A program made the position numbers and the translations under genes. Shown here piece after piece: positions 14,611-29,865 of a stretch of DNA of 34,210 bases; position 1 is the first letter of the stretch, and each line of letters begins with the position of its first letter. Where the stretch lies: positions 84,092 through 118,301 of the forward strand of contig JAKAQO010000006.1 in assembly GCA_021822495.1 (NCBI GenBank), read 5' to 3'. The notes beneath the pieces are model-generated. The model worked only from the letters and a program-made list of their open reading frames with translations. It had not been told where the DNA came from and did not search any database. The stretch is from a bacterium. GTDB lineage: Bacteria > Elusimicrobiota > Elusimicrobia > UBA1565 > UBA9628.

Positions 14611-14612
14611 CT

Positions 14613-15857: not shown

Positions 15858-16322
15858 ATGAACGCGCAACTAAAAAACAATTTAAGCATTGCATTGCTGT
15901 ATGGGCTATCATTCTTTCTTTTATGGTTTAGAAGAAAATATGCAATCGCTCAATTAATAAAACAATCGGCGAACTCTAACTTTGATGTCCTTATTGGCAA
16001 AAGTCTAGTGTATTTCGTTTCAATTGCTCTATTTCTTGTCGCCTTAATCTCTTCAATCCGATGTCTATCTCCCAAATTTAATATGGAAATTAACAAGCTA
16101 CTTAGCAGCCAACAAGGAGACAATTTAACTAGCGTATCAATATTTGGGCTTGGGTTTATTATGTTATGGTTTAGAAGAAAATATCTAATCGAGCAATTGA
16201 CGAGAAATATAAACTCCCGCTTCAGTGTTTTTATGGCTACAAGTGGAATGTATATCATCATGTTTGGCATGTTTTTTGTCGCCTTGATCTCTTTGTTCCG
16301 TTGCCTATTCGCAAATTCTTAA
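15858..16322 (+). CDS. Small membrane protein with internal duplication
   Basis: The 154-residue product has four membrane segments arranged as two copies of one unit. In each, a hydrophobic helix is followed by LWFRRKY.I.QL, a short polar part, a second helix ending VALIS(S/L)(I/F)RCL. The first unit spans about residues 7-70 and the second about 90-152. ATG 15858 was chosen over 15852 because it sits seven bases after AGGAG. It is the first gene of the cargo array. No family recognised; the intragenic duplication suggests a fused dimer of a two-helix ancestor. Confidence 0.65.
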   Translation: MNAQLKNNLSIALLYGLSFFLLWFRRKYAIAQLIKQSANSNFDVLIGKSLVYFVSIALFLVALISSIRCLSPKFNMEINKLLSSQQGDNLTSVSIFGLGFIMLWFRRKYLIEQLTRNINSRFSVFMATSGMYIIMFGMFFVALISLFRCLFANS

Positions 16323-16335
16323 GAAGCATAATCAA

Positions 16336-16776
16336 ATGAACAAGAAACGAATCGGGCTGTGGACTGGGAGCATCATCGGCGTTGCCTACGCAATCGCAAC
16401 CCAAATTGACACAATACCGCCTCTATGGCTATCGACTTCAATCGTCCATTTTATCGATAACATTTTGGTTATACTGACATTTACAAATGCAGTTATTACG
16501 TTCCTGACGTTACGGTTGGTTCCCATAAGCTCAGATATATCCGATCTGATTTATGAAGCCGCAAGCGTACTGTATTTCGTCATTCTTGGTGTTCTGGTCG
16601 ACAGATTGCGAACGCGCTTTTCTAGGAGCCAGGTATTTTTTATTCTTCTCGGTTTTGTGGTTGTAAACATGGCGCTTATTTTTATTCCACTTTTTTTCTG
16701 GCGGAGACTTTTTGCTTCCGTTTTTATGGGTGGCGTTCCCCCGCTTCTTAGGAAGAACTTCACGGGGCCGCGATGA
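16336..16776 (+). CDS. Small multi-pass membrane protein, unknown
   Basis: The 146-residue protein has about four hydrophobic segments (IGLWTGSIIGVAYAIAT, DNILVILTFTNAVITFLTL, AASVLYFVILGVLV, FFILLGFVVVNMALIFIPLFFW) and a basic C-terminus. It begins 13 bases after the previous gene with only a weak ribosome binding site. The 3' end runs into the first copy of the long repeat module (about 16785). No family recognised. Confidence 0.55.
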   Translation: MNKKRIGLWTGSIIGVAYAIATQIDTIPPLWLSTSIVHFIDNILVILTFTNAVITFLTLRLVPISSDISDLIYEAASVLYFVILGVLVDRLRTRFSRSQVFFILLGFVVVNMALIFIPLFFWRRLFASVFMGGVPPLLRKNFTGPR

Positions 16777-16784
16777 AAAATGTA

Positions 16785-16920
16785 CACAGAGGCAACAACA
16801 GCGGCAAGCGGAAGAAATTATTCTTGCGGGCTTGGAGCGAAAAACAGCGGAAAAAATGAATTCAGAAATTCCGTGGGAGCATGAAGGCATGGGGGAAATA
16901 GGGACAGTCCCCATTTCCCT
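16785..16920 (+). repeat. Long repeat module, copy A
   Basis: It shares CAGAGGCAA…GCGG, GGGCTTGGAGCGAAAAA.AGCGG and the MNSEIPWE coding start with copies at 17878, 22740, 23570 and 25935. It ends in the palindrome at 16893-16919 (GGGAAATAGGGAC / GTCCCCATTTCCC). The MTKREQK part is replaced here. Confidence 0.8.
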
Positions 16921-17050
16921 TGTTCAAGGCGGTCCAGTCATTGAACCGCCGCCTCATTGGATCGTCCCTTTTGAAGACGCCGCAGATCCAAAAACGGGCG
17001 AGTGTAAAATGCATTGCTATAGAAACTTTTCTACTGGCAAATGTGAGTAA
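16856..17050 (+). CDS. Array small protein, MNSEIPWE type with Cys-rich tail (64 aa)
   Basis: The protein starts MNSEIPWEHEGMGEIGTVPI and continues LVQGGPVIEPPP as in the copy at 17990. It then diverges to a tail with three Cys (GECKMHCYRNFSTGKCE). It is soluble by composition, and the EIGTVPIS segment is encoded by the palindrome. The next gene begins 16 bases downstream. The longer frame from 16712 overlaps the preceding membrane gene and is less likely. No known family; partner of the zinc-motif protein at 17066 by position. Confidence 0.5.
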   Translation: MNSEIPWEHEGMGEIGTVPISLVQGGPVIEPPPHWIVPFEDAADPKTGECKMHCYRNFSTGKCE

Positions 17051-17065
17051 AAATTGGAGAGAAAT

Positions 17066-17908
17066 ATGGGATACATAATAGACTCAGATGCCAAAAATGC
17101 TCAAGAGGGCATTAATCCAGAAAAACTACTGTCGTTTGATAACAATGCGTTGTCCAGCTTGCAAGAGTTAAACAAGATAATATCCGAACTCTTAGGCCTA
17201 ATTTTTATAAGGGATGCCAGAAACATAAACCTGCCTACGATTATGTATTCGACGCTTGCATCTAAATATTTAAAAGCTCGACCACGCCTATGGGAAATCA
17301 CTCTGGCCATGAATATGCTGGGAATTAAAACCCCGCTTTGGCGCATCTCCGCAGCAAAGAATATTCATGGATTACGCTTAGAAGGGCCTCAAATAAATCC
17401 TCAGTCTGAATGTAAAGCCTGTTCTGGGTGTGGCCGAATCCTTTCAGTGGAGAGCGGACCCTCATCCTATCGCTATCATCGAAAATTAATCCAGAAAATG
17501 GATATTGCGAATTGCTTGCCTCCATTCTTAGTTGCCCAACACAAGCTGATGGCAAAGGCCATAGACAGAATGCGGGGAGAGGGAGTTTTTGATGATATTC
17601 TTCGGTGTGCGGAACAGTCTTTATTATCCCTCCAACTTCCGATTGACCACTACTCGCTCACTGTCGAGTCCACTATCCACATGAAAACGAAAATTGTCCA
17701 ATCATGCATTGGATTGATTCGTCTTACTCCTCGGATATTTATAAATGTGAAGGGAAAAGAAATCCCAGTTAGTTCTAAATGGGAAGCGCAGAAAATATCT
17801 GGAAAGAAATACCCTGAGCGTGTACTTTTTTTTCAAGCATGCCCTGTTTGCCTTGGCCGAGGGACGCAATATACCCGGAGGCAAAAAACGGGAAGGAAAA
17901 ATAAATGA
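17066..17908 (+). CDS. Soluble protein with two DnaJ-type zinc motifs, unknown function
   Basis: The 280-residue cytoplasmic-looking product contains exactly two CXXCXGXG motifs, CKACSGCG at 116-123 and CPVCLGRG at 259-266, which can together form one zinc site as in the DnaJ cysteine-rich domain. Here they are 140 residues apart rather than adjacent. The N-terminal part is helical (LQELNKIISELLGLIFI, LWEITLAMNMLGI); the middle is rich in beta-type segments (TPRIFINVKGKEIPV). It is one of the few non-membrane cargo proteins. ATG 17066 follows GGAGAG. The stop overlaps the next micro-ORF by four bases. Function unknown; a folding or RNA-binding role is only a guess from the motif. Confidence 0.65.
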   Translation: MGYIIDSDAKNAQEGINPEKLLSFDNNALSSLQELNKIISELLGLIFIRDARNINLPTIMYSTLASKYLKARPRLWEITLAMNMLGIKTPLWRISAAKNIHGLRLEGPQINPQSECKACSGCGRILSVESGPSSYRYHRKLIQKMDIANCLPPFLVAQHKLMAKAIDRMRGEGVFDDILRCAEQSLLSLQLPIDHYSLTVESTIHMKTKIVQSCIGLIRLTPRIFINVKGKEIPVSSKWEAQKISGKKYPERVLFFQACPVCLGRGTQYTRRQKTGRKNK

Positions 17909-18118
17909 CCAAGCGCGAGCAAAAAAGGTTGGTCCGGTCGAATCTGAAAAATATGTTTCTCAGGGCTTGGAGCGAAAAATAGCGGAGAAATGAATTCAAA
18001 AATTCCGTGGGAGCGCGAAGGCATGAGGGAAATAGGGACAGTCCCTATTTCCCTCGTTCAAGGCGGTCCAGTCATTGAACCGCCGCCTCAGCAGGTAATC
18101 GAAGCTCCGCCCGAACCA
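17878..18118 (+). repeat. Long repeat module, copy B (most complete)
   Basis: It runs from the GGAGGCAAAAAACGGGAAGG part through the MTKREQK micro-ORF and the MNSEIPWE start to the perfect 27-bp palindrome at 18027-18053. It continues with the Pro-rich coding part shared with copies A and 20351. Confidence 0.85.
17905..17982 (+). CDS. Micro-ORF of the repeat module, MTKREQK type (25 aa)
   Basis: The basic peptide MTKREQKRLVRSNLKNMFLR plus AWSEK overlaps the preceding stop by four bases (ATGA). Nearly the same frame recurs at 22774 and 25964, a frameshifted one at 23632, and an extended relative at 19572. It is conserved as sequence, but may be conserved merely because the repeat is. Confidence 0.35.
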   Translation: MTKREQKRLVRSNLKNMFLRAWSEK

Positions 18119-18145
18119 GTGATGGAGCCAAGAGGAACCCAATGA
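17990..18145 (+). CDS. Array small protein, MNSEIPWE type with Pro-rich tail ending RGTQ (51 aa)
   Basis: The product starts MNSEIPWEREGMREIGTVPI, then SLVQGGPVIEPPP and a Pro/Glu-rich tail ending PRGTQ. GGAG lies five bases upstream. Its stop overlaps the start of the family-1 membrane protein by four bases (ATGA, 18142-18145), so the two are translationally coupled. The palindrome encodes EIGTVPIS. A very similar tail occurs at 20351, also upstream of a family-1 gene. No known family; candidate cognate partner of the membrane protein. Confidence 0.55.
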   Translation: MNSKIPWEREGMREIGTVPISLVQGGPVIEPPPQQVIEAPPEPVMEPRGTQ

Positions 18146-18813
18146 AACAACCCTTTAATTGGTTTTTTAAAAATAATAACCGCAGAGTACTACTTGTATT
18201 CACCATCGCTTTTCTGCTGGTGGAAGTGTTCTCAGCTTTTGAACCAGAAATGCATCCAATTAGCCATTGGTTGCAAATTCACATACCAGTATGGCTTGCA
18301 ATTTCTGATATCGGTATTGTTGGCATCTGTCTGATGATTACGGCGCATAATCGCCCCTTGGAGCAGGATAAATACGTTTTGTCCATATTGATTCCAGCTT
18401 TACTGATTCTAAGGCCATCTATTAATGTTTTGTTAAACAGTCATGTTGTTTGGGTCAGTGGGGTTGGAGTCATTTTCTTATTAGGATCTACGTTCTATTG
18501 GGCAATTGTGACAATCCTCCGGCCATTTTTAAACTCAAGAAAAAAAGAACCGTTTCCTGAAATCAAAGGGACATACTACGCTCGCGAAGGAGAAACCTGG
18601 ACGGACGAATTCGAGCATTTAAAAGTCAAAGAAGAATTAGAATATGAGCTCTCCCAGGAATTTCCGGATTTTTGGAGCGCTTCTTCGCATTTTACGAAGC
18701 GGAAGAAATTGGAACTCTTGGAGCGGACCGCAGCGAAGTTCCATGAGAAATATGGCCGCGGGAAAATGGCGTTGAGCGTCAAGGAATTAAAAGAACGAAT
18801 AGAATCGGCGTAA
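18142..18813 (+). CDS. Family-1 array membrane protein (4 TM plus charged C-terminal domain)
   Basis: The 223-residue protein has four membrane segments within residues 15-130 and a highly charged helical C-terminal domain (EGETWTDEFEHLKVKEELEY, then FWSASSHFTKRKKLELLER). The segment HWLQIHIPVWLAISDIGIVG defines a family shared with 20596 and 23146. The C-terminal domain is almost identical to that of 20596 but absent from 23146. It overlaps the small ORF upstream by four bases. I know no family for it; the cytoplasmic charged tail might signal or bind a partner. Confidence 0.65.
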   Translation: MKQPFNWFFKNNNRRVLLVFTIAFLLVEVFSAFEPEMHPISHWLQIHIPVWLAISDIGIVGICLMITAHNRPLEQDKYVLSILIPALLILRPSINVLLNSHVVWVSGVGVIFLLGSTFYWAIVTILRPFLNSRKKEPFPEIKGTYYAREGETWTDEFEHLKVKEELEYELSQEFPDFWSASSHFTKRKKLELLERTAAKFHEKYGRGKMALSVKELKERIESA

Positions 18814-18917
18814 TCATCGTTTGCGCCGCTCAAATTCGCGCCTTGGAGGAGTCAAGAATGTCGGAAGATGGCCAAGAAGCCGTGAGGCGGGAAATAGGGA
18901 CAGTCCCTATTTCCACT
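18592..18917 (+). repeat. 326-bp duplicated segment, copy 1
   Basis: This matches 21031-21356 without gaps, with only about a dozen differences by eye. It covers the C-terminal domain of the family-1 protein, the intergenic part, the start of the next small ORF and the palindrome, and stops a few bases after it. Confidence 0.88.
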
Positions 18918-19040
18918 ACCACTCCTGCTGGAGTGCCCGTTGCCGGAGCGCTCAGCGTAGGAATTGTTGGAGTAGGATCCTGGGCCAGCGCGGCAGAACT
19001 TAACGCACTCCTAACTTGCCGACATCAAGGAGGAAAATAA
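18858..19040 (+). CDS. Array small protein, MSEDGQEAVRREIG type with hydrophobic tail (60 aa)
   Basis: TTGGAGGAG lies eight bases before ATG 18858. The product starts MSEDGQEAVRREIGTVPIST and continues into a Gly/Val/Ala-rich hydrophobic segment (GVPVAGALSVGIVGVGSW) ending LLTCRHQGGK. Its stop overlaps the next ATG (TAATG). The same start recurs at 21297 with a much shorter tail. The hydrophobic tail could form one membrane helix, so a bitopic or pore-type peptide is possible, but no bacteriocin or holin signature is convincing. Confidence 0.5.
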   Translation: MSEDGQEAVRREIGTVPISTTTPAGVPVAGALSVGIVGVGSWASAAELNALLTCRHQGGK

Positions 19041-19522
19041 TGAACTGGATCGAATTTACAATTAAATCCTGGTATCACGCCCACTCTAGCCTTTTCCTAA
19101 CTTTCGTGGCAATAGCGGGAATTATTGGCGGACATTTTGAATCTGAGAAAAATCTGGGTGGAGCAATTTTTACTTGGCTGATTTCTCTATCAGCTTTGAT
19201 GGGAGCCATTATGCCTTTTTTCCCGTGCGAACCGTCCTATCCTTGGCATATCGCGATGCTCATCGTTTATTTATGTCTCCCTTTACTTATTATTTTTAGA
19301 CGCAAGAAGCAGAGTGGCGAAGAGACCTCTAAAAAACCATCTCTTAAAAGACCTCGTATGTTATTGATTGTGGGAAAGGGCGCAGGCGGAGGGTTAATCG
19401 CATTTATTACTTGCTGGGGTGTTCATTTGGGTTTAGCAGTAGCTACAATCGTCGGCGGAATCTTTGGGTTAATAGTCATCATTAGTTGGATAATTGAAGG
19501 CAAAAACAATAAAAATCAATGA
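19040..19522 (+). CDS. Family-2 array membrane protein
   Basis: The 160-residue product has AAGGAGG upstream and about five hydrophobic segments. Its N-terminal half (W..AHSSLFLTFVAIAGIIGG, then ESEKNLGGAIFTWLISLSAL) is homologous to 26865 (AHRSISFLILAIFLSIGG, ESKRSLTSAIFTW) and more distantly to 26203. The C-terminal half adds a Lys-rich loop and two more helices. It follows a small ORF with a one-base overlap (TAATG). No known family recognised. Confidence 0.65.
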   Translation: MNWIEFTIKSWYHAHSSLFLTFVAIAGIIGGHFESEKNLGGAIFTWLISLSALMGAIMPFFPCEPSYPWHIAMLIVYLCLPLLIIFRRKKQSGEETSKKPSLKRPRMLLIVGKGAGGGLIAFITCWGVHLGLAVATIVGGIFGLIVIISWIIEGKNNKNQ

Positions 19523-19571: not shown

Positions 19572-19763
19572 ATGAGCAATCGCGAGCAAAAAAGGTTGGT
19601 CCGGTCTGGTGGAATTGGAGAAATTGGGGGGTATATTAATTTTGGCGGACCGCCAAATGCTGGAATTCAGATACCGACACTGGGAATCGGATGGGGGATA
19701 GGCGGTGGTTATTTTACTGGAGTGATTGATACATCTCCTCTTAGACCTTGGACAATTAAATGA
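19572..19763 (+). CDS. Glycine-rich small protein, MSNREQK type (63 aa)
   Basis: The N-terminus MSNREQKRLVRS matches the MTKREQK micro-ORFs of the repeat modules, but here the frame stays open. It continues into GGIGEIGGYINFGGPP, then IPTLGIGWGIGGGYFTG. The Gly-rich amphipathic part recalls secreted peptides, but there is no leader peptide, double-glycine site or Cys. Its stop overlaps the next gene by four bases (ATGA). GGGG precedes the start. It may be the intact form of which the micro-ORFs are decayed copies. Confidence 0.5.
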   Translation: MSNREQKRLVRSGGIGEIGGYINFGGPPNAGIQIPTLGIGWGIGGGYFTGVIDTSPLRPWTIK

Positions 19764-19993
19764 ATCTAATATGGCAAGCGTTGCTCGATTGGAGCTTTTT
19801 CTTGATTATGTTATTTAAGGGGCAAGAAAACTGCGAAAGAGCGATTAGTATTTCTAAATCCATGCACAAGGAGGGCTGGGAACCGCCTAAGATCACTTTA
19901 TTAATGGTTGATGTTGTGAGATACACGCTAACCATAGGCGCTCTTCTGGCGGCCTGTATTGATACTGTACGATTGTTATCCTCATACTTTTGA
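19760..19993 (+). CDS. Small two-helix membrane protein
   Basis: The 77-residue protein has an N-terminal helix (WQALLDWSFFLIMLF), a polar stretch (GQENCERAISISKSMHKEGW) and a C-terminal helix (TLTIGALLAACIDTVRLL). It starts within the stop of the Gly-rich peptide gene (four-base overlap), so the two are coupled. It is not recognisably related to the other array families. Confidence 0.5.
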   Translation: MNLIWQALLDWSFFLIMLFKGQENCERAISISKSMHKEGWEPPKITLLMVDVVRYTLTIGALLAACIDTVRLLSSYF

Positions 19994-20004: not shown

Positions 20005-20346
20005 ATGGCAGATACAGCTACTCATCTTTTAAAGGCAGGAATAGGTCTCGCGGGACTTATATTCTTTATGGGGATGAGAAAGAGACTTCTTTACGCCGAT
20101 GGGAAATCCCATAAAGCGCTGATAAAGAAAAGTCCCCGGTGGGCGCAAAATATTGCCTCTCTGCTTTTATTCTTTCCACTTTGTCTCGGGATATGCGTTG
20201 AGTTGTTCCGCGCATTCGATCCTGGTTTTATACTTTCTCGACGGGTGTCTTTTGTTTTTTCAGCGGGTTGCCTCGCGGGACTCATGCTTTTGGCATTGGG
20301 CATAAAAATTTATGCAATGTTCTCGAAAAAGCGGGTTAAGGAATGA
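20005..20346 (+). CDS. Family-3 array membrane protein (113 aa)
   Basis: AAAGGAG precedes ATG 20005. The product starts MADTATHLLKAGIGLAGLIF, has a basic loop (KSHKALIKKSPRWAQNIA), then two or three helices and ends KIYAMFSKKRVKE. It is a close paralogue of 29388; their last 50 residues are identical and DNA identity continues through the palindrome downstream. The start MADTAT also matches MPDTAT at 29093. Function unknown. Confidence 0.65.
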   Translation: MADTATHLLKAGIGLAGLIFFMGMRKRLLYADGKSHKALIKKSPRWAQNIASLLLFFPLCLGICVELFRAFDPGFILSRRVSFVFSAGCLAGLMLLALGIKIYAMFSKKRVKE

Positions 20347-20380
20347 CCTCATGAGTGAAACAGGGACAGTCCCCATTTCC
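20194..20380 (+). repeat. 187-bp duplicated segment, copy 1
   Basis: This matches 29574-29760 with about three differences by eye. It covers the end of the family-3 gene, the start of the next small ORF and the palindrome; similarity ends at the palindrome edge (CTTGTTCAAG here, ACTGGTCCTG there). Confidence 0.9.
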
Positions 20381-20458
20381 CTTGTTCAAGGCGGTCCGCC
20401 TCAAACAGTAATCGAAGCTCCGCCCGAACCAGTGATTGCGCCGAGAGGAACCCAATGA
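20351..20458 (+). CDS. Array small protein, MSETGTVPIS type ending RGTQ (35 aa)
   Basis: The product begins directly with MSETGTVPIS and carries the Pro-rich tail LVQGGPP…IEAPPEPVIAPRGTQ seen at 17990. The ATG overlapping its stop is followed by AAATAA, so the gene that should be coupled here is lost. The real family-1 gene starts 138 bases later at 20596. This looks like a module whose membrane gene was cut off and replaced. Confidence 0.45.
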   Translation: MSETGTVPISLVQGGPPQTVIEAPPEPVIAPRGTQ

Positions 20459-20595: not shown

Positions 20596-21252
20596 ATGAA
20601 ACGACTATTGAATTACTCCCGAAAGGATAGACCTCGAGGATATATACTTATTGTGCTCTTTGCATCTTTAATAGGGATGGGCGTGTCAGCCCTTAAGCCA
20701 GAAATGCGCTCAGCTAGTTATTGGATTCAGATACACGCTCCAATATGGATTGCAGTGACAGACACTGCCATAGTAGGCTTTTGTTTAATCCTCATCGCAC
20801 ATGCATTGCGCACCAAGTCGCCTAAATCTATTTCAGCCATACTGGCTCTCGCTTATACGACTTTTACTCCTACTTTCGTAGTGATGTATGGCGACACGCC
20901 AAAACTCGGGATGATATTGGAGATTTTTTTAGTTGCATGCGTATTGTATGCAGCTATGATGGTATCGCTTGTAGTGAGTGGAGAGGAAGGTTTTTTGAGA
21001 GAAGTCAAGGATATTCCCATGCAGGGAGAAGAAACCTGGACGGACGAATTCGAGCATTTAAAAGTCAAAGAAGAATTAGAATATGAGCTCTCCCAGGAAT
21101 TTCCGGATTTTTGGAGCGCTTCTTCGCATTTTACGAAGCGGAAGAAATTGGAACTCTTGGAGCGGGCCGCTGCAAAGTTCCATGAGAAATATGGCCGCAG
21201 GGAAATGGCGTTGATCGTTAAGGAATTAAAAGAACGAATAGAATCGGCGTAA
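20596..21252 (+). CDS. Family-1 array membrane protein, paralogue of 18142
   Basis: The 218-residue product follows GAGAGGAAATC and has the family-1 layout: four helices including YWIQIHAPIWIAVTDTAIVG, then the charged C-terminal domain. The N-terminal membrane half is clearly diverged from 18142, whereas the C-terminal domain is almost identical. That mosaic pattern points to recent replacement or gene conversion. The 137 bases before it (20459-20595) contain no ORF apart from remnants. Confidence 0.65.
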   Translation: MKRLLNYSRKDRPRGYILIVLFASLIGMGVSALKPEMRSASYWIQIHAPIWIAVTDTAIVGFCLILIAHALRTKSPKSISAILALAYTTFTPTFVVMYGDTPKLGMILEIFLVACVLYAAMMVSLVVSGEEGFLREVKDIPMQGEETWTDEFEHLKVKEELEYELSQEFPDFWSASSHFTKRKKLELLERAAAKFHEKYGRREMALIVKELKERIESA

Positions 21253-21356
21253 TTATCGTTTGCGCCGCTCAAATTCGCGCCTTGGAGGAGTCAAGGATGT
21301 CGAAAGATGGCCAAGAAGCCGTGAGGCGGGAAATAGGGACAGTCCCTATTTCCACT
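21031..21356 (+). repeat. 326-bp duplicated segment, copy 2
   Basis: Partner of 18592-18917, at the same length with no gaps. Similarity stops just after the palindrome (CCACTGGG here, CCACTACC there). Confidence 0.88.
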
Positions 21357-21374
21357 GGGAGGATAAGGGCCTAG
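21297..21374 (+). CDS. Array small protein, MSKDGQEAVRREIG type, short (25 aa)
   Basis: GGAGGAG lies upstream of the start. MSKDGQEAVRREIGTVPIST then GRIRA and TAG. The first 20 residues match 18858, but the tail is only five residues. The next membrane gene starts ten bases later. It could be the minimal form of the small-ORF family or a truncated copy. Confidence 0.4.
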   Translation: MSKDGQEAVRREIGTVPISTGRIRA

Positions 21375-21383: not shown

Positions 21384-22277
21384 ATGAATACAAACAAAAA
21401 AATTCCGTCTCCGGTGGTTGGAATTTATCAGAGCATATCCATAGTTTTCAGTTGTAGCCTGACTCTATGGCTTATACATGCCATCGGATTTAAAATAAGA
21501 ATTCTTCGCGCCATAGGAACATTCACCCTTACCTCTATTTATGGAGTTGTACTCTTTCAAAATAAGCCCGATTTAAGAGGCCTCAAATTCGGCACTTTTA
21601 ATATTTTTCAAAAATTGATTTTTATTTATTGTTTATGTGTTTTGAGCGATATTTCTCTACTCTATTTAAGAGACGGTCAGTTTGTTTGGGTCTTGTTGAC
21701 CTTGACTATAGTCCTCGTCCTTTCTTCAGTTATGTTGTGGATGTTCTATCTGCCAGAAACGAAGTTTTCGGGCAATCTATTTTTCACCTCTCCGTCTAAC
21801 ATGCGGCCCATAACAGAACTTTCTATGGCGTTTTCAATTTTGTTTACATCCTCGTTGCTTATTTTTGCATCCACATGGTTTATTCACGGAAAATCATATC
21901 TCAATGGATTTTTAGCGATAACCCTCTTTTCGATAGTCGGATTCTTCGGAATTTTGCCATTACGCTTAGAATTTTGGGTAAAAAAATATCCTTTTCTTTT
22001 GAATCCGGACGCGTTTTTTGATCTTCCGGAGATACTCCCAGGATTGACGCCCACACTGTCGATATTATTCATATCATCCCTCATTGGATTCCTATTCTGG
22101 CTTAACATAGTTTTCCTAACCCATTTTGGTCCACCGCGAAATGCAGTTCTCAGTTTCGGGATTGAAGCATTATCCATTGGGTTTATTTTTAAATCCTTTC
22201 TTGTAAAAGCCCGTAGGAAAAGCAACAAAAGATTTGATGATGTACCCAGAGACAAAAGAAGCGGGAAGCAGAAATAA
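21384..22277 (+). CDS. Eight-helix membrane protein, unknown
   Basis: The 297-residue product has AGAGGA before ATG 21384 and about eight hydrophobic segments spread over its length, ending in a basic tail (RRKSNKRFDDVPRDKRSGKQK). The last codons coincide with the CAGAG-CAAAAGAAGCGGGAAG start that also begins the long repeat modules, so the gene end was probably shaped by recombination there. It is larger than the other array proteins and shows no conserved transporter motif that I recognise. Confidence 0.6.
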   Translation: MNTNKKIPSPVVGIYQSISIVFSCSLTLWLIHAIGFKIRILRAIGTFTLTSIYGVVLFQNKPDLRGLKFGTFNIFQKLIFIYCLCVLSDISLLYLRDGQFVWVLLTLTIVLVLSSVMLWMFYLPETKFSGNLFFTSPSNMRPITELSMAFSILFTSSLLIFASTWFIHGKSYLNGFLAITLFSIVGFFGILPLRLEFWVKKYPFLLNPDAFFDLPEILPGLTPTLSILFISSLIGFLFWLNIVFLTHFGPPRNAVLSFGIEALSIGFIFKSFLVKARRKSNKRFDDVPRDKRSGKQK

Positions 22278-22291: not shown

Positions 22292-22762
22292 ATGATCAAA
22301 GTGAAAAATTGGGTTATTTTGATGATGTTGGCAACCATGGCTATTTCTTTGTTTTATGGTTGCGATCTTAGATACGGATTTCTCCTCGGAAATTTTCGCT
22401 TATCGAAGAATTCGAGACTTCCACAATGGATATCAATTCCCCCTGGATATGCAAGATCAGATTTGAACGTCGATATTGTGCAATATTCGTATCGTACAGT
22501 GTTTCTTGTTTATGGTCCGCCGCCAGAGAAGAAACTTCTACTTGAGAAAGCAGGCGTGGAGCGATTGCATCCCGTTTCTCAACGAGAATTCGATGCCCAC
22601 CAGACAGGGGCAGTTTACCCAAATTATTCAATAATCACAGTTGATGGTATCAGCGAAATTTTCGAGCAACAGAAACCAGGAAATGTTTTGTTTATCACAG
22701 ATGATCCATACCTAAAAAAAATACTCCCAAGACAGAAAGCCACTACGATCCAGAAACAATGA
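22292..22762 (+). CDS. Membrane-anchored or lipoprotein-like small exported protein
   Basis: AAGGAG lies nine bases before ATG 22292. The 156-residue product has one N-terminal hydrophobic segment (WVILMMLATMAISLFYGCD), possibly a signal anchor or an atypical lipobox with C24, and a soluble remainder (VQYSYRTVFLVYGPPPEKKL, GISEIFEQQKPGNVLFITDD). No family recognised. It lies 14 bases after the preceding gene and just upstream of repeat copy G. Confidence 0.55.
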   Translation: MIKVKNWVILMMLATMAISLFYGCDLRYGFLLGNFRLSKNSRLPQWISIPPGYARSDLNVDIVQYSYRTVFLVYGPPPEKKLLLEKAGVERLHPVSQREFDAHQTGAVYPNYSIITVDGISEIFEQQKPGNVLFITDDPYLKKILPRQKATTIQKQ

Positions 22763-23149: not shown

Positions 23150-23628
23150 GAAAAAAATATGACTCTTTTAAAGAAATTTTCAAGAAAGGTCCCCTAAAGT
23201 TATCTCCAAATCTAAAAGTTACTGATTATATAATTGCATCGTCTGTCATCGTTGTACTTGTGGCAGCCCTTATATTGAGGCATTATACATCCTCTTCGCA
23301 GCCCATCGGCTATTGGCTGGAAAATCATATTCCTGTCTGGTTTGCATTCGCGGACATTGTAATAGTTAGTATATGCGCTATATTAGTTATACATCTGCCC
23401 TTTAGAATAGCCGGATTTTTTTGGGTATTATTCTTGCTGGCTCTCTCGATTCTAATGCCATGTCTTCACATTGCTCTGAACAATCGTTATGGATTGTGGA
23501 CACTAGCTTTCCTCTGCATAAGTTCAATATATAGCGTATTTGGAACTGTATGGCAATCACGCCTCGGCCAGAGGCAAAAGGACGGTGTATCCGGAAGCAG
23601 AAATGACACAGGGAAGCAGGAAAAATAA
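23146..23628 (+). CDS. Family-1 array membrane protein without the C-terminal domain
   Basis: The 160-residue product has about four helices with the family-1 signature YWLENHIPVWFAFADIVIVS. It ends in a short polar tail (RQKDGVSGSRNDTGKQEK) instead of the charged domain of 18142 and 20596. ATG 23146 overlaps the small ORF by four bases. The tail codons are part of the start of the next repeat module (copy H), suggesting that recombination replaced the original C-terminus. Confidence 0.6.
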   Translation: MRKKYDSFKEIFKKGPLKLSPNLKVTDYIIASSVIVVLVAALILRHYTSSSQPIGYWLENHIPVWFAFADIVIVSICAILVIHLPFRIAGFFWVLFLLALSILMPCLHIALNNRYGLWTLAFLCISSIYSVFGTVWQSRLGQRQKDGVSGSRNDTGKQEK

Positions 23629-23781
23629 AATGGCCAAGCGCAAAAAAGGTTGGCCCGGTCGAATCTGAAAAATATGTTTCTCAAGGCTTGGAGCGAAAAA
23701 CAGCGGAGAAAAATGAATTCAGAAATTCCGTGGGAGCGTGAAGGCATGGGGAAAATAGGGACAGTCCCCATTTCCACTCCG
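23570..23781 (+). repeat. Long repeat module, copy H
   Basis: Similar to copy B. In the MTKREQK part a deletion gives ATGGCCAAGCGCAAAAAAGG (23632), so the micro-ORF stops after MAKRKKGWPGRI. The palindrome is at about 23750-23775. Confidence 0.8.
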
Positions 23782-23811
23782 GCCTTCTGCCCATTTGAGG
23801 TTTCAAAATGA
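23713..23811 (+). CDS. Array small protein, MNSEIPWE type (32 aa)
   Basis: GGAGAAAA precedes the ATG. MNSEIPWEREGMGKIGTVPI is followed by a short tail STPAFCPFEVSK. The stop overlaps the next gene by four bases (ATGA, 23808-23811), so this short form still couples precisely to its neighbour. No function known. Confidence 0.5.
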   Translation: MNSEIPWEREGMGKIGTVPISTPAFCPFEVSK

Positions 23812-24665
23812 ACCGAACTTTCACGCCCGAAAAGGAACGGAACCATCTAATTGCCCTACTGATATTATTTATTGTATACCCCATATCTTTTTATGGTGGC
23901 CGGACGGGCCCAATAATGGAGATTTCCAAATGGATTCCCCGTCCTCTTGCCATTCTAGATCTTTTCATCATGCCGCTATCATTCGTAGCAATCCCATTAT
24001 CTATGCCCTACTCACGGAAGATCATCATTATTTTGGTGATTTCCAATTTTGCGAACCTATTAACGTCGCCTAGTATTTCCAGGATCGGCGAAAATTCATT
24101 CGCGGCAGTCATTCTAATGCTATGGGGCGGTATATGCTTTATAGTTTCACAGTATGTAATGTTTTCGGGATATGGAATAAAGGAAGATGAGCAAGTGGCC
24201 AATTTGGCGCAAGCAAAAAAAAATGATTTAGAAAAACCAAAAAAAATAGATTGGCGCGGCAAGAATTTGACATTTCCCAATCAAGAAAAACAGCGCCGCT
24301 TGATTTTCGATTGTCTTATGGTCACAATGCTTCAAGTTCTAGGTCTTGGGACGGCGCTGTCAAACACAAGTTCTTATCCGACGCCGATAAGGGATGCCCT
24401 TATCGTTTGCGGCTTCATCGCCTTTTTCCTTTTTCCGATTTATATTATTTTTCCGCGCTTTGGCGGCAAAATCTATATCGCGGAGGCGATTTATCTGCTG
24501 GTATCACTTTTTTTCGGCTCAAGCTTTTCGCCCGGGCCATTTTTTCTCGTGGATTGTGCCATAACTTTGGGATTCGTTTTGCTGTTTATTATCCCACCCG
24601 CCTTCATAGGGTTCGCCGCACTCAAGGCGTATGCAGCCGGAGATAAAAATGACGAGAGGCAATAG
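23808..24665 (+). CDS. Seven-to-eight-helix membrane protein, unknown
   Basis: The 285-residue product has about four helices (residues 15-130), a charged loop (KKNDLEKPKKIDWRGKNLTF) and about four more helices with FGGKIYIAEAIYLLVSLFFG. The two halves may be a fused pair. It is coupled to the small ORF upstream by a four-base overlap, and its TAG is immediately followed by the ATG of the next small ORF. No recognised family. Confidence 0.6.
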   Translation: MNRTFTPEKERNHLIALLILFIVYPISFYGGRTGPIMEISKWIPRPLAILDLFIMPLSFVAIPLSMPYSRKIIIILVISNFANLLTSPSISRIGENSFAAVILMLWGGICFIVSQYVMFSGYGIKEDEQVANLAQAKKNDLEKPKKIDWRGKNLTFPNQEKQRRLIFDCLMVTMLQVLGLGTALSNTSSYPTPIRDALIVCGFIAFFLFPIYIIFPRFGGKIYIAEAIYLLVSLFFGSSFSPGPFFLVDCAITLGFVLLFIIPPAFIGFAALKAYAAGDKNDERQ

Positions 24666-24860
24666 ATGAATTATTGGAAACCCGGTAAAACAAAGTCATC
24701 TATTACGACTCGCCGATTTCGGCGCGGAAAACCTCTGCCCTGGAGCCTTTGTATTCGCAAAAGCCGCAAGGCCGCTCGCGCAAAAAGGCGGGAAATAGGG
24801 ACAGTCCCTGACAAACAGCGGAGGAGATTTCTGGGCGAGATCAAGCTTCCATGCAAATAA
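24666..24860 (+). CDS. Basic small protein containing the palindrome segment (64 aa)
   Basis: Very basic: MNYWKPGKTKSSITTRRFRR, then RKAARAKRREIGTVPD, encoded across a half-degenerate palindrome (24791-24811), ending LGEIKLPCK. It begins directly after the previous stop and overlaps the next gene by ten bases. It fits the small-ORF position in the array, but its N-terminus is unlike the MNSEIPWE and MSEDG types. Confidence 0.4.
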   Translation: MNYWKPGKTKSSITTRRFRRGKPLPWSLCIRKSRKAARAKRREIGTVPDKQRRRFLGEIKLPCK

Positions 24861-25402
24861 AAAACATAGTTGCATCCATCATGATTATTTTCTTTGAAAA
24901 TACACTTGCAGGGGCTCCCCTAAATAAATATTCTCACAAATTCGTAGATAAACGTTTCGGCGAAATTGTAATTGGTAAAGGTCCACATAAATTAAAAAAA
25001 ATAAAAAATATATATGGAAAAGGCTTTTTTTCTAAATATAACGACCAGCTTTGCTATTTTAACGAAGAACTCAATCAATATCTTGACTTTTTCATTGGTC
25101 CAGATGATTCAATCGAAGGGATTCTTGTTTCATATAAAAGTCCAGGCGCTGAATGCAAAAGAGCGGTTACTCATAAAAAAGGAGGGTTTTGTTCTGAAAA
25201 GGGCATTTGCCTTGGAACATCTTACTCCAAATTGATGAAGATTTACGGTAAACCACATAAAGTTAAGAGAACGAAAGAGGAAGTCCAGGTTGAATACCAT
25301 ACGGATTACAAGCAAGACCCTCAAGTTTCTCTTGCATATGATTCTAGCTATAAATTTAAGCATGGAAAACTTTTTGAATTGATGGTTTGGGATGGTGAAT
25401 AA
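24851..25402 (+). CDS. Exported soluble protein, unknown
   Basis: The 183-residue protein has a signal peptide (IVASIMIIFFENTLAG, cleavage near residue 22) and a soluble part with four Cys. The segment GICLGTSYSKLMKIYGKPHK resembles a motif common in small bacterial secreted proteins (G-x-x-L-G-x-S-x-x-x-x-x-x-x-Y-G-x-P). Its base composition is AT-rich. It is one of only two clearly secreted soluble cargo products, the other being 29927. The start at 24851 lacks a strong ribosome binding site and may depend on coupling. Confidence 0.6.
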   Translation: MQIKNIVASIMIIFFENTLAGAPLNKYSHKFVDKRFGEIVIGKGPHKLKKIKNIYGKGFFSKYNDQLCYFNEELNQYLDFFIGPDDSIEGILVSYKSPGAECKRAVTHKKGGFCSEKGICLGTSYSKLMKIYGKPHKVKRTKEEVQVEYHTDYKQDPQVSLAYDSSYKFKHGKLFELMVWDGE

Positions 25403-25431: not shown

Positions 25432-25962
25432 ATGATCACTAAAAATATTCAAAAAATAAAAATCATTAATCGACAATTCAAGCTCCTTAAGGAGAAAAAA
25501 TGTTGGTATGTTTCTTGTGGGCGAAACGTTGGCAGTTCTTTCCAGCTTTGCTTGGGAGAAAAGATCAGAAGAAAAAAAGCTCTTGGCAATAAATTCCACC
25601 CTAAGTCTTTTAGAGAAAATACTGCCGAATACGCCTTTCTTGTATGGTGTAGTTGGCGATTATCAAAGGACGAAAAACTGATCGTGACAAGCGACGATTG
25701 TGATAACCATTATAAGTGGTGCAAATACTTACGAAAACTGATCGGATTGAGGATCATCAAAATTCAGCTAATGAACTGTTTTTTTGATTTTAAAATAATT
25801 TTTAATGAAGGTTGGCAAATACATATTTTTTGCGATAACGGCAATAAAGATCCAAGCATAGACACTAATTGGGAAATATTTATTCCTGGAGATTATCTCA
25901 TTAGCGTGGGAACTCATCAAAATATTGATTGCCCCCAGAGACAAAAGAAGCAGGAAAAATAA
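25432..25962 (+). CDS. Soluble protein, possibly immunity-like, unknown
   Basis: The 176-residue protein starts after AAAGGGGATAA. It is Cys- and Lys-rich with no membrane segment. The C-terminal part (DFKIIFNEGWQIHIFCDNGN…NWEIFIPGDYLISVG) has the strand pattern seen in some small immunity-type proteins of contact-dependent systems, but I cannot name a family with confidence. The final codons (QRQKKQEK) belong to repeat module J, as with other genes that end at a module border. Confidence 0.5.
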   Translation: MITKNIQKIKIINRQFKLLKEKKCWYVSCGRNVGSSFQLCLGEKIRRKKALGNKFHPKSFRENTAEYAFLVWCSWRLSKDEKLIVTSDDCDNHYKWCKYLRKLIGLRIIKIQLMNCFFDFKIIFNEGWQIHIFCDNGNKDPSIDTNWEIFIPGDYLISVGTHQNIDCPQRQKKQEK

Positions 25963-26112
25963 AATGACCAAGCGCGAGCAAAAAAGGTTGCTCCGGTTGA
26001 ATCTGAAAAATATGTTTCTCAGGGCTTGGAGCGAAAAATAGCGGAGAAAAATGAATTCAGAAATTCCGTGGGAGCGTGAAGGCATGGGGGAAATAGGGAC
26101 CCATTTCCCCCT
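25935..26112 (+). repeat. Long repeat module, copy J, with a 5-base palindrome deletion
   Basis: It has the same order as copy B. The palindrome (about 26088-26110) reads GGGAAATAGGGACCCATTTC, having lost AGTCC from the centre, which shifts the reading frame of the small ORF. Confidence 0.85.
25964..26041 (+). CDS. Micro-ORF of the repeat module, MTKREQK type (25 aa)
   Basis: MTKREQKRLLRLNLKNMFLR plus AWSEK and TAG. Same length as 17905 with two substitutions. It begins one base after the previous stop. Confidence 0.35.
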   Translation: MTKREQKRLLRLNLKNMFLRAWSEK

Positions 26113-26203
26113 ACAAGTGATTAAAGCAGGATCAATTGCTTTCAGTGAGGTCATCGAACTTGCCGCCGTTCTTGCTTTATCTCATTGTTGGGGTGGGAGA
26201 TAA
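26051..26203 (+). CDS. Array small protein, MNSEIPWE type ending HCWGGR (50 aa)
   Basis: MNSEIPWEREGMGEIG is followed, because of the 5-base deletion in the palindrome, by a new frame THFPLQVIKAGSIAFSEVIE, then LAAVLALSHCWGGR. The stop overlaps the membrane gene start (TAATG, 26201-26205). Without the deletion the frame would stop almost at once (SPYK, TGA). The ending resembles ITHCWAGK at 26861, also before a family-2 gene. Confidence 0.5.
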   Translation: MNSEIPWEREGMGEIGTHFPLQVIKAGSIAFSEVIELAAVLALSHCWGGR

Positions 26204-26682
26204 TGATGTTACATAAAATTTTTACTGCCTACCCAATCGCAAGCTATCTATTGCTATTTGTGGCTCTAATTTTTTCCGCTTACCGCGATTCCAAGAAAGG
26301 CTTAGGCATGGTAGCATTGGAGTGGTGGTACGGGCTCCCCATTCTAATTATGCTCGACATCCCTATTTGTCGGAAATTTCATTTTGGAATTATCATAACT
26401 TGGGCTACGATAATTACATCCCTTATTATTTATATCAGCATGCTTCCATTTTTAACGGCGAAATGGAATAAATCTGGGCGGCCAAATGAAAATTCCAATA
26501 GTATGCAAATTGGGGGTGTCATAGGCTTAGCTATCGGGTTTGTTATTGGGCTAATTAGTATCACTTTAGTAGAGGTTTTTGGGCATTATTATTGGCCGGT
26601 AGGTGTGTTGTCCTGGGGGGCAATGGGTAGCGCTCTAGCAGGATTTATTGTGGGTGCCATTATTGGAAAAAATCGCTCTTGA
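26203..26682 (+). CDS. Family-2-like array membrane protein
   Basis: The 159-residue product has GGGAG upstream and about five helices. The N-terminal part (YLLLFVALIFSAYRDSKKGL) is a distant relative of 19040 and 26865. The C-terminal part is a Gly-rich helical pair (IGLAIGFVIGLISITLVEVF, AMGSALAGFIVGAIIG). It is coupled to the small ORF upstream by TAATG. ATG 26206 is an alternative start. No known family. Confidence 0.6.
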   Translation: MMLHKIFTAYPIASYLLLFVALIFSAYRDSKKGLGMVALEWWYGLPILIMLDIPICRKFHFGIIITWATIITSLIIYISMLPFLTAKWNKSGRPNENSNSMQIGGVIGLAIGFVIGLISITLVEVFGHYYWPVGVLSWGAMGSALAGFIVGAIIGKNRS

Positions 26683-26861
26683 TCATTCGGTTTAACGCAG
26701 TCGGACTTCGCAATCTGGAGGCGCAAAGCGCCGAGGATGTCGAAGATCAATACAGGGAGGTCTTTGGGACTTCAATGAACTCGCGGACTTTTGAGCTGCG
26801 CTTGACGAGGGAAATAGGGACAGCCCCCATTTCCATCACTCATTGTTGGGCAGGGAAATAG
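26679..26861 (+). CDS. Array small protein ending HCWAGK (60 aa, or 28 aa from internal ATG)
   Basis: A frame from TTG 26679, overlapping the previous stop by four bases, reads FNAVGLRNLEAQSAEDVEDQ, then MNSRTFELRLTREIGTAPIS and ends ITHCWAGK. ATG 26775 gives only MNSRTFELRLTREIG onward and has GGGAGG 16 bases upstream. The palindrome (about 26809-26834) encodes REIGTAPIS. The family-2 gene begins three bases after the stop. The MNS start and REIG core place it in the small-ORF family, but its middle is different. Confidence 0.4.
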   Translation: MIIRFNAVGLRNLEAQSAEDVEDQYREVFGTSMNSRTFELRLTREIGTAPISITHCWAGK

Positions 26862-26864
26862 ATT

Positions 26865-27164
26865 ATGCATTATCTAATGCTTTTAGAAACTTGGGGCGAT
26901 GCTCATCGTTCAATCAGCTTTTTAATCCTAGCAATCTTTCTTTCCATCGGTGGTTACCAAGAATCAAAAAGATCTCTTACTTCGGCAATTTTTACATGGT
27001 TCTATGCGTTATCATTTTTCGTTATAGCGGCTGTCGGATTTGCCATGTTTATAGGAGTCGGATCCTCACTCAGTGTACGACTTCTAGTCGCAGTATTTAC
27101 ACTGATTACAGCAATTGCTGTATTGGGGATATATTTAGTTATTCGGTGGAGAAAAAATAAATGA
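26865..27164 (+). CDS. Family-2 array membrane protein (99 aa)
   Basis: Three helices: AHRSISFLILAIFLSIGG, SAIFTWFYALSFFVIAAVGF and LLVAVFTLITAIAVLGIYL, with a basic end (RWRKNK). It aligns with the N-terminal half of 19040 (same AH.S, GG, ES(K/E)…L..AIFTW spacing). Its stop overlaps the next MNSEI start by four bases (ATGA, 27161-27164). Confidence 0.6.
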   Translation: MHYLMLLETWGDAHRSISFLILAIFLSIGGYQESKRSLTSAIFTWFYALSFFVIAAVGFAMFIGVGSSLSVRLLVAVFTLITAIAVLGIYLVIRWRKNK

Positions 27165-27283
27165 ATTCAGAAATCTCGTGGGAGCGTGAAGGCATGAGGG
27201 AAATAGGGACAGTCCCTGACATGAATTGCCAAGCCTTGAGAGCGGGGGACAGCCCCCATTTCCATTGGGATCCCACATGTTGA
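27161..27283 (+). CDS. Array small protein, MNSEISWE type (40 aa)
   Basis: MNSEISWEREGMREIGTVPD is followed by MNCQALRAGDSPHFHWDPTC. Two palindromes (about 27198-27218 and 27243-27263) lie in the frame. No membrane gene follows; the next gene is the regulator at 27400. This looks like a module whose partner has been lost, or the end of the first part of the array. Confidence 0.4.
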   Translation: MNSEISWEREGMREIGTVPDMNCQALRAGDSPHFHWDPTC

Positions 27284-27320
27284 ATGCGGAGTTCATTTCA
27301 ACGGCAAATTCTCGTGGGTC

Positions 27321-27395: not shown

Positions 27396-27399
27396 TGAC

Positions 27400-28893
27400 A
27401 TGTCAGCGTCATTAAAGTATCCTATCGTTATGGAATCCAATTCTTGGATCGCTCGCGCTCAAGACTTACTGCGCCGAAGCCTCGATCTATCGGTTCCCCA
27501 TGAGCTCAATGAGCTGGATTGGAAGCGCGAGTTGAGTTCCAACAAGGAGCGCTTTACCGAGCACCTGTCGGCTTTTGCGAACCTTGACCAGGGCGGCTTT
27601 TTGGTTTTCGGGGTGACGCATGACGGCAAAAAAGCCGGGATTGACTCATCGGCCGTTAAAAACATCATTGAGAAGATAGGCAATGCCGCCAGGGACGGAC
27701 TAGAACCGTCCTGCGCGATAGACCATTTCATAGAGAAAACCGAAACGCCGGGCAAGGTCCTGCTTTATATTCACATCCCCGGCTCAACGCAAAAGCCCGT
27801 GCGCCTGCGCGGGAAAAGCCTGGAGTTTTCATTTATCCGCAGCGCCGGACAAACCAGAAAAATGAACGAAAGCGAAATCCGCGCGGCGTTATTGCGCTCA
27901 CGGACATTGCGGTTCGAGGAGCTGACCATCAATTCGGCGGAATCTGCGGCAATTTTAGAGGACTTTGAGATCTCCGCGGTCTGCCAAAGGCTTAAAATCC
28001 CATTTTCAGGCGAGCCCGAGCGGCGCGGTGAAATCATGGTCAATCGCAAATTCGCGGCAAAAACCGCGACAGGCCTCGCGCCAACTTATCTTGGCGTTCT
28101 CGTTACCGGCAAGGATTTCAGAAAATTGCCCGGAGCGGAACATTACGGAATTCGGCTGACAAGATACCGGGGGAATTCCAAATTGGAGGCCGAGCGCGAT
28201 GAATTTTATTTTAAGGGTTTCGTCCATTCCTTGGACCAGCTGATTGATGACATTATGGGCCTTCTTCCCAAGAGCGAAGTCATCGAAAAAGCCACGCGAA
28301 GACAAGTCCCCGTCTATCCGGAGATCGCCCTGCGCGAATTGATCGCCAACGCCGTCATCCACCGAGACTACTCTCGCACCGACAGCTACGTCCAGGTGGA
28401 AATATTCGATGACAGAATCGAAATAACCAATCCCGGCTCTTTGTTGCCCGACATGGCCGTTGACCGACTCATCGATCAGCAGCCGCGAGCGCGCAACGAG
28501 ATCCTGGCCGCCCTCATGCGCGAACTCGGTTTTTGCGAGGAGCGTGGCAGCGGAATAGATAAAGCGGCATCTTCCCTTGAGCTCTACGGCCTTCCGGCCG
28601 TTCATTTCATCAACAATCCCGATTATTTTCGCGCTATTCTTTACGCGCCCAAGCCCTATAAAGCCATGGACAACGAGGAGAGACTGAGGACCGCTTACCA
28701 GCATGTTTGCCTGCACTATGTCGCGGGGCAAAAGGTGACCAATGCTTCATTAAGAGCTCGCCTAAAACTCTCCGGAAACCAGTCGCAACTGGTTTCCGCG
28801 CTGATTCGCAAGGCGATCGACGCTAATTTAATCAAGATCGCCAATCCGGGAGCGTCTCCGCGCTATATTCATTATGTTCCCTATTGGGCATAA
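27400..28893 (+). CDS. AlbA_2 (Schlafen-like) domain plus HATPase_c_4 plus winged-helix protein
   Basis: The 497-residue soluble protein has an N-terminal AlbA_2 divergent domain (ELNELDWKRELS, then FANLDQGGFLVFGVTHDGK; residues about 30-160). A GHKL-type ATPase-like region follows, around 305-395 (ELIANAVIHRDYS, VEIFDDRIEITNPG, ERGSGIDKA). The C-terminus is a winged helix (TNASLRARLKLSGNQSQLVS). Such proteins are common in mobile elements as putative transcription regulators or defence-associated ATPases. ATG 27400 has no ribosome binding site; ATG 27430 (MESNSWIARAQ) is an alternative. GC content is closer to the chromosome than that of its neighbours, so it may be a separate acquisition. 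Confidence 0.85.
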   Translation: MSASLKYPIVMESNSWIARAQDLLRRSLDLSVPHELNELDWKRELSSNKERFTEHLSAFANLDQGGFLVFGVTHDGKKAGIDSSAVKNIIEKIGNAARDGLEPSCAIDHFIEKTETPGKVLLYIHIPGSTQKPVRLRGKSLEFSFIRSAGQTRKMNESEIRAALLRSRTLRFEELTINSAESAAILEDFEISAVCQRLKIPFSGEPERRGEIMVNRKFAAKTATGLAPTYLGVLVTGKDFRKLPGAEHYGIRLTRYRGNSKLEAERDEFYFKGFVHSLDQLIDDIMGLLPKSEVIEKATRRQVPVYPEIALRELIANAVIHRDYSRTDSYVQVEIFDDRIEITNPGSLLPDMAVDRLIDQQPRARNEILAALMRELGFCEERGSGIDKAASSLELYGLPAVHFINNPDYFRAILYAPKPYKAMDNEERLRTAYQHVCLHYVAGQKVTNASLRARLKLSGNQSQLVSALIRKAIDANLIKIANPGASPRYIHYVPYWA

Positions 28894-29010
28894 ATGAGAA
28901 AGCATAAGTTAATATCCGTGGTCGAGAAACCGCGATGAAAAGCCTCAAGGCGTTTATTCGCATCAAACTGGGCGCGCCGTTTTGAAAGTATCCAGTTTTG
29001 GCCGATTTTA

Positions 29011-29057
29011 ATGGGAGCGTGAAGGCATGAGGGAAATAGGGACCGTCCCCATTTCCC
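29011..29057 (+). repeat. Partial repeat module M with palindrome
   Basis: GGGAGCGTGAAGGCATGAGG and the palindrome GGGAAATAGGGACCGTCCCC (with one central change) remain. The MNSEIPWE start is missing, leaving only MREIGTVPISH and a stop. The 200 bases from 28894 to 29092 hold no other gene. Confidence 0.75.
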
Positions 29058-29092
29058 ATTAAACAAATTCGGATTTTAAAGGAGAGAAAAAA

Positions 29093-29362
29093 ATGCCAGA
29101 TACAGCTACTAATCTCAATAATCTAGTTCAGGGCTTGGTCATGTTGACTATGGGTATCATCTTATTTCTCAAGCGCGAAGAATTCATTAATAAGGCGCTT
29201 AGGTCAGAAGAGGTGTTCTGGAATATCAAGTACACTGGCAATGAGCCAGGCATGTGGTTTAAAAAATTCATCGGGAAATTTGTTATCTACTCTATAAGTT
29301 TTGTTTTTGTCGTAGGTGGTTTCAGCTTTGTCTGGACCGCTTGCCGCAACTTAATACGCTGA
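29093..29362 (+). CDS. Small membrane protein of family-3 type (89 aa)
   Basis: AAAGGAGAG precedes ATG 29093. MPDTATNLNNLVQGLVMLTM matches the start of 20005 (MADTATHLLKAG). Two helices flank a polar loop (REEFINKALRSEEVFWNIKY), and the second is FVIYSISFVFVVGGFSFVW. The next family-3 gene starts 25 bases later, so two relatives are in tandem. Confidence 0.55.
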   Translation: MPDTATNLNNLVQGLVMLTMGIILFLKREEFINKALRSEEVFWNIKYTGNEPGMWFKKFIGKFVIYSISFVFVVGGFSFVWTACRNLIR

Positions 29363-29387
29363 CGAAGGAAAGGAGAGAGAGTTAATT

Positions 29388-29726
29388 ATGGAACGTTTAG
29401 AACACTTCTTAAAGGCAGGAATAGCTTTTGCGGTACTTATATTCTTTATGAGGGCCAGAAAAAGATTCATTGACGCGGCCGAGAAATCCCATAAAACGCT
29501 GATAGAAAAAAGTCCCCGATCAGCGCAAAATATCGCTTACCTGCTTTTATTCCTTCCAATCTTTCTCGCGGCCTGCGTTGAGTTGTTCCGCGCATTCGAT
29601 CCTGGTTTTATACTTTCTCGACGGGTGTCTTTTGTTTTTTCAGCGGGTTGCCTCGCGGGACTCATGCTTTTGGCATTGGGCATAAAAATTTATGCAATGT
29701 TCTCGAAAAAGCGGGTTAAGGAATGA
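29388..29726 (+). CDS. Family-3 array membrane protein, paralogue of 20005
   Basis: The 112-residue product has GGAGAG upstream. Its N-terminal half (ERLEHFLKAGIAFAVLIFFM, KSHKTLIEKSPRSAQNIAYL) is diverged from 20005, but the C-terminal half is identical in protein and nearly identical in DNA (29574 onward). The mosaic suggests recent recombination between modules. Confidence 0.65.
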   Translation: MERLEHFLKAGIAFAVLIFFMRARKRFIDAAEKSHKTLIEKSPRSAQNIAYLLLFLPIFLAACVELFRAFDPGFILSRRVSFVFSAGCLAGLMLLALGIKIYAMFSKKRVKE

Positions 29727-29760
29727 TTTCATGAGTGAAATAGGGACAGTCCCCATTTCC
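29574..29760 (+). repeat. 187-bp duplicated segment, copy 2
   Basis: Partner of 20194-20380. Similarity stops exactly at the end of the palindrome. Confidence 0.9.
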
Positions 29761-29865
29761 ACTGGTCCTGTAGCGTACATTTTGAATCGGCTAGAGGTCG
29801 CGCCCGATCTTGCGAAAGCTCTCAGGCAAGGGGCCGCGCCGCGTCGAATATTTGTACTCCGGTGA
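29731..29865 (+). CDS. Array small protein, MSEIGTVPIS type (44 aa)
   Basis: MSEIGTVPISTGPVAYILNR is followed by LEVAPDLAKALRQGAAPRRI and FVLR. It begins four bases after the family-3 stop, as at 20351, but has a different, basic, helical tail. The next gene (29927) has its own ribosome binding site 60 bases on, so coupling is not evident here. Confidence 0.4.
   Translation: MSEIGTVPISTGPVAYILNRLEVAPDLAKALRQGAAPRRIFVLR

Follow-up and report, generated by a model that had tools for sequence, protein, structure and literature searches.

Repetitive extragenic palindromic (REP) sequences are usually regarded as extragenic debris. By definition the palindrome has a GT(A/G)G head beside it (PMC2817692); Rickettsia palindromic elements, of ~150 bp, are mobile palindromes that insert in genes in a preferred frame (PMC10969869), and in integrons short open reading frames (ORFs) across attI1 and attC relieve the stem-loop barrier through termination and re-initiation (PMC8876359). 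Here we describe a window of 34,210 nucleotides (G000:C14:84092-118301; contig JAKAQO010000006.1), the right end of which coincides with the contig end, where a tRNA-Gln integrative element carries small orphan genes, mostly for membrane proteins, in what appears to be an operon-like array with a common orientation, punctuated by palindromes of the kind associated with REP-associated tyrosine transposases (RAYTs). With moderate confidence, we read it as a modular orphan-gene array, exchanged at these RAYT-type palindromes, with leader ORFs crossing the hairpins.

The sequence bears out the integrative element: the tRNA-Gln 5' part recurs as an exact 45-bp direct repeat on either side of ~19 kb, and a tyrosine integrase and an excisionase both sit at its right end, giving the arrangement of tRNA direct repeats with an adjacent integrase that is seen in tRNA-integrated islands. 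What sets it apart from such islands is its cargo, an array of orphan genes for membrane proteins with palindromes as punctuation. From 15852 to 30970 there are about twenty genes, all on the + strand and nearly gapless, as an earlier note on this sequence had proposed in placing an array with all its genes on one strand inside an integrative element. In an Rfam scan the tRNA was the sole match.

The same note had pointed to EIGTVPIS as shared by many small ORFs; it was found not to be a protein motif in its own right. EIGTVPIS is the one-frame translation of a near-perfect palindrome of ~25 bp, GGAAATAGGGACAGTCCCTATTTCC (codons GAA ATA GGG ACA GTC CCT ATT TCC), whose core GGGACWGTCCC is present in 142 copies in this genome against 0 in the reversed-sequence control. 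The genus has four other members, with 13-100 copies each, and the core is also frequent in certain further genera of the order; the reversed control gave 0-3 in these comparisons. Ten exact cores lie within the 14-kb array, where 0.9 were expected. In another family of the order, genomes G042 and G038 hold 152 and 34 cores, which shows that palindromes of this family extend beyond the genus. The genome has two Y1_Tnp genes. The RAYT on contig C11 (locus L013) scored 82.4 bits with NF047646, above the NCBIfam cut-off of 80, and a homologue in the sister species G002 (contig C34, L045) scored 79 bits, one under it; GGGACWGTCCC palindromes lie on either side of both genes, and at L013 one also lies within the RAYT 3' part. 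Like the palindromes of REP/RAYT systems, this one is present in high copy number and flanks RAYT genes of its own genome and genus. Unlike them, it lies mostly inside ORFs rather than outside genes, and it serves here to punctuate a row of genes on a mobile element. A sample of 25 loci beyond the array gave 39 cores, 28 of them inside ORFs that were called mechanically and have 80 codons or more (at least five of the 28 at L013, where the ORF runs antisense to the RAYT gene). For palindromes within ORFs the frame counts were 15:3:4, with GTVPxS the preferred one (P=0.0009; hand count, L013 omitted). As EIGTVPIS is a translated genome-wide palindrome found mostly in other ORFs, sharing it does not by itself argue for a family of peptides. 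A mobile palindrome in protein-coding genes, with a preferred frame and a recurring peptide, recalls the Rickettsia palindromic elements; the present one is tied to a RAYT and, at about 25 bp rather than ~150 bp, is not an element of that type, which has a conserved coding frame of its own. The palindrome, as AAAAGGGGACAGTCCCCTTTT, occurs in the window's host part too, at 1631, 6359, 6701 and 6863; three of these four copies are in ORFs, reading RGQSPFS or KGTVPFS, and one directly follows a stop codon.

Junctions were found at the palindromes. By self-comparison, 17 repeat blocks of at least about 60 bp were identified, eight of which end within 3 bp of the right edge of a palindrome and six more inside one (hand count). 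The sister species G002 has a related, near-identical element (contig C140, L062) that is short of just one palindrome-to-palindrome module. In it, part of the 26203 gene is present without any difference, followed by a diverged spacer and then by a palindrome joined directly to post-27271 sequence; gene 26865-27164 and its repeat are missing, the absent stretch running from the palindrome at 26835 to the one at ~27271. In genome G001, homologues of array genes lie at other loci, and on its contig C180 the homology to 29093-29726 begins at 29058, one base past the palindrome. The spacer at 26715-26790 is strongly diverged from L062 though the flanking gene is identical, which suggests local exchange. 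A search for literature on REPs as join points turned up nothing.

The six pairs of small ORF and membrane gene on which the earlier note rested were all present at the coordinates it gave, four with ATGA and two with TAATG overlaps, and other small ORFs of the kind start at 16856, 20351, 21297, 24666, ~26775, 27161, 29027 and 29731. Those that span a palindrome all cross it in one frame, the ORF at 26051 doing so after a 5-nt deletion in its palindrome copy (at 26094) that fuses the conserved head with an open tail ending at TAATG; the ORF at 19572 is without a palindrome. In 8/13 the stop and the following start are no more than 10 nt apart, compared to 3.1 expected from dinucleotide-preserving shuffles of the spacers (P=0.00025), or 4.4 when the 12 nt before the start were held fixed (P=0.00025), bearing out the claim of a coupled layout beyond chance. 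With the other frame that is open across the palindrome, 1/13 stops fell near the next start (Fisher P=0.006). This stop-position test supports selection for read-through coupling, and it is what speaks against the account in which the small ORFs are fortuitous open frames, without translation or function, in a repeat block duplicated along with the genes: the coincidence of stop and following start is much commoner than shuffling of the spacers would give. That account is consistent with the MGTVPIS ORFs that opposite-strand repeats also give, with substitution patterns lacking a clear preference for frame, with frame-breaking indels in upstream parts of the repeat, and with the 7-nt and 1-nt indels that separate the diverged G002 spacer from the window, upstream of the presumed small-ORF start; we consider it doubtful.

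As the junctions show, adjacent modules are gained, lost and mosaically swapped at the palindromes; the agent would be RAYT-mediated or ordinary inter-repeat recombination. The tiny ORFs would act as leader ORFs, with a shared head made of repeat flank and translated palindrome and a tail made of whatever separates the palindrome from the gene that follows. The frame appears to be kept open by selection up to the next start codon, so that ribosomes may unfold the hairpin and then start again on the gene behind it (translational coupling), the small-ORF peptides themselves probably being of little importance. In this one mobile element the palindrome punctuates the array, modules come and go at it and short frames cross it to the next start. 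If this reading is confirmed, an integron would not be needed for arrays of cassette type to arise, and the translation of palindromes could be a means of keeping exchanged genes expressed.

A number of observations weigh against this reading. The GT(A/G)G head of classical REPs (GTRG) was not found beside the palindrome in the examined copies, there is no RAYT gene within the element, and the array hairpins vary in stability, with z between -6.8 and about -0.1. Four of the 13 palindrome ORFs (20351, 27161, 29027 and 29731) end 31-138 nt before the next gene; three of them (20351, 27161 and 29731) are among the additional ORFs that the earlier note had listed in similar positions. Among six background palindromes that lie between co-oriented ORFs, two likewise have a stop no further than 10 nt from the next start, so the array may not be alone in such coupling, and the stop tests are not fully independent because the array copies share ancestry. 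Lastly, the G001 orthologue of gene 18142 is on a contig with chromosomal-type genes and has a different, frame-altered leader upstream.

Short ORFs across attC in integrons give the layout a functional precedent, and the likeness extends to co-oriented orphan-gene modules on one strand, palindromic sites between them, ORFs over a stem-loop that end at or near the next start, and a tyrosine recombinase at one end. A true integron cassette array is nevertheless very improbable, and as a candidate was largely refuted: no integron integrase scored above the cut-off anywhere in the genome (TIGR02249 best 69 bits, cut-off 265), GTTRRRY/RYYYAAC core sites of attC type are out of register with the repeats, the palindrome is dispersed across the whole genome, and the integrase lies at tRNA-Gln with 45-bp attachment (att) repeats.

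A different role for the small ORFs, which we think unlikely, is that of functional bacteriocin- or toxin-like peptides with a conserved head and variable tail, each next to a membrane protein serving as immunity protein or partner, so that exchange at palindromes would swap tail and partner as in miniature polymorphic-toxin cassettes. Each membrane gene has one small ORF, tightly overlapping, tail and membrane gene belong to the same module, and some tails are hydrophobic or Gly-rich (18858, 19572 and 26051; G001 C180 tail ...GVGGIGIGIGGGASS...). Tail codon content was close to that of real genes (-0.042 per codon compared to -0.025, with stop-free shuffles at -0.19; one tail was mis-framed). 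The comparison of synonymous and non-synonymous changes that had been proposed as a check on the small ORFs gave 4 and 6 respectively in the heads, and 12/25 changes fell at third positions (P=0.09); these tests lean to coding but are weak or flawed, and the evidence for peptide conservation is weak. As to a double-glycine leader, LVQGG is seen in 3/14 small ORFs only. Against such peptides, the heads are mobile repeat rather than a conserved leader, tails differ between species, and no small ORF had a family match. The C39 peptidase-ABC (ATP-binding cassette) exporter of class II bacteriocin loci is not found in the element, and the one clear C39 match over the cut-off in the genome is an ORF of 216 aa, too short for such an exporter. 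We likewise hold it to be improbable that the locus is a palindrome-based cassette system, in which palindromes would be both exchange points and fixed-frame, in-frame linkers, a leader would stay joined to its membrane gene after exchange, and each tail and membrane protein may be peptide and partner.

Table 1. Features of the array and its integrative element, in window coordinates.
Feature	Coordinates	Strand	Remark
Left attachment repeat	14951..14995	+	exact 45-bp copy, tRNA-Gln 5' part
Membrane protein, family 3-like	15852..16322	+	internal duplication
Small membrane protein, singleton	16336..16776	+	no family match
Small ORF MNSEIPWEHEGMGEIGTVPISLVQGG...	16856..17050	+	stop 16 nt ahead of next ATG
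Palindrome 1	16893..16918	+	
Soluble cysteine-rich (zinc-ribbon-like) protein	17066..17908	+	
Small ORF	17990..18145	+	ATGA overlap with gene 18142
Palindrome 2	18027..18052	+	perfect stem; RNA z -6.8 with flanks
Family 1 membrane protein	18142..18813	+	4 predicted membrane helices and helical C-terminal domain
Small ORF MSEDGQEAVRREIGTVPIS...	18858..19040	+	TAATG overlap with gene 19040
Palindrome 3	18889..18914	+	
Family 2 membrane protein	19040..19522	+	
Gly-rich small ORF, without palindrome	19572..19763	+	ATGA overlap with gene 19760; only MxxREQKRLVR common to others
Family 3 two-helix membrane protein	19760..19993	+	
Family 3 membrane protein	20005..20346	+	
Small ORF, then MK*	20351..20458	+	coupled gene missing
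Palindrome 4	20355..20380	+	
Family 1 membrane protein	20596..21252	+	3' half, spacer and palindrome 96.7% identical to 18588-18917
Small ORF MSKDGQEAVRREIGTVPIS...	21297..21374	+	stop 10 nt ahead of next ATG
Palindrome 5	21328..21353	+	
Multi-pass membrane protein, singleton	21384..22277	+	
Lipoprotein-like protein	22292..22762	+	
Small ORF, 98 codons	22853..23149	+	crosses double palindrome; ATGA overlap with gene 23146
Double palindrome	22890..22955	+	
Family 1 membrane protein (short)	23146..23628	+	
Small ORF	23713..23811	+	ATGA overlap with gene 23808
Palindrome	23750..23775	+	
Multi-pass membrane protein, singleton	23808..24665	+	
Small ORF	24666..24860	+	overlaps next start
Half palindrome	24790..24813	+	
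Secreted-like protein	24851..25402	+	
Soluble orphan	25432..25962	+	
Small ORF	26051..26203	+	TAATG overlap with gene 26203; palindrome with 5-nt deletion
Family 2 membrane protein	26203..26682	+	shared 345 bp identical in G002 element
Small ORF MNSRTFELRLTREIGTAPISITHCWAGK	26775..26861	+	
Palindrome	26809..26835	+	left junction of module absent in G002
Family 2 membrane protein	26865..27164	+	absent in G002
Small ORF	27161..27283	+	crosses double palindrome; right junction of absent module near 27271
AlbA_2 / HATPase_c_4 protein	27400..28893	+	common to G002 element, 98.8% DNA identity over block
Palindrome	29031..29057	+	G001 homology begins at 29058
Family 3 two-helix membrane protein	29093..29362	+	
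Family 3 membrane protein	29388..29726	+	
Last small ORF (MSEIGTVPIS...)	29731..29865	+	
Last palindrome	29735..29760	+	
Excisionase-family helix-turn-helix protein	32783..33034	+	TIGR01764 1e-13
Tyrosine site-specific integrase	33031..34128	+	PF00589 7.8e-32; far under integron-integrase cut-off
Right attachment repeat at tRNA-Gln gene	34148..34192	+	contig stops inside the tRNA

The membrane proteins fall by alignment into three families (family 1, 18142, 20596 and 23146; family 2, 19040, 26203 and 26865; family 3, 20005 and 29388, with 29093, 19760 and 15852 more distant) besides singletons, in agreement with the at least three unrelated families expected earlier. The cargo is partly non-membrane (17066-17908 and 27400-28893), and the products of 22292, 24851 and 29927 are secreted or lipoprotein-like in appearance. 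A defence, exclusion or signalling repertoire, also put forward in the earlier note, gained no backing: the array membrane proteins had no convincing match in Pfam (above cut-off), PHROGs or PADLOC, whose profiles were matched by the AlbA_2/HATPase protein alone, through their shared domains, and all finds of the families were within the genus. Family 1 was present in 2/295 genomes of the phylum, both from this genus, family 3 in 2/57 relatives, and family 2 in 2/5 genomes of the genus, to which its search was confined. Viral contigs, scanned with family 1 only, and plasmids, scanned with one array membrane protein, gave no match; family 3 has no block conserved enough for such scanning. The predicted structure of family 1 (predicted local distance difference test, pLDDT, 69; predicted template modelling score, pTM, 0.35) matched nothing in the PDB at E<=0.001 by Foldseek. 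The least unlikely guess is that the membrane proteins are selfish or host-interaction cargo of the element.

In the G002 locus L062, IS3-like transposase genes at 11717-12852 truncate a family 2 gene, and the same insertion sequence (IS) end lies upstream of the family 3 genes of L061; a type I restriction-like HsdR and its neighbours (12948-18566) lie near the related element. Gene 15852 contains an internal duplication at 15921-16317, with 69% DNA identity, corresponding to two fused hairpin-type membrane units.

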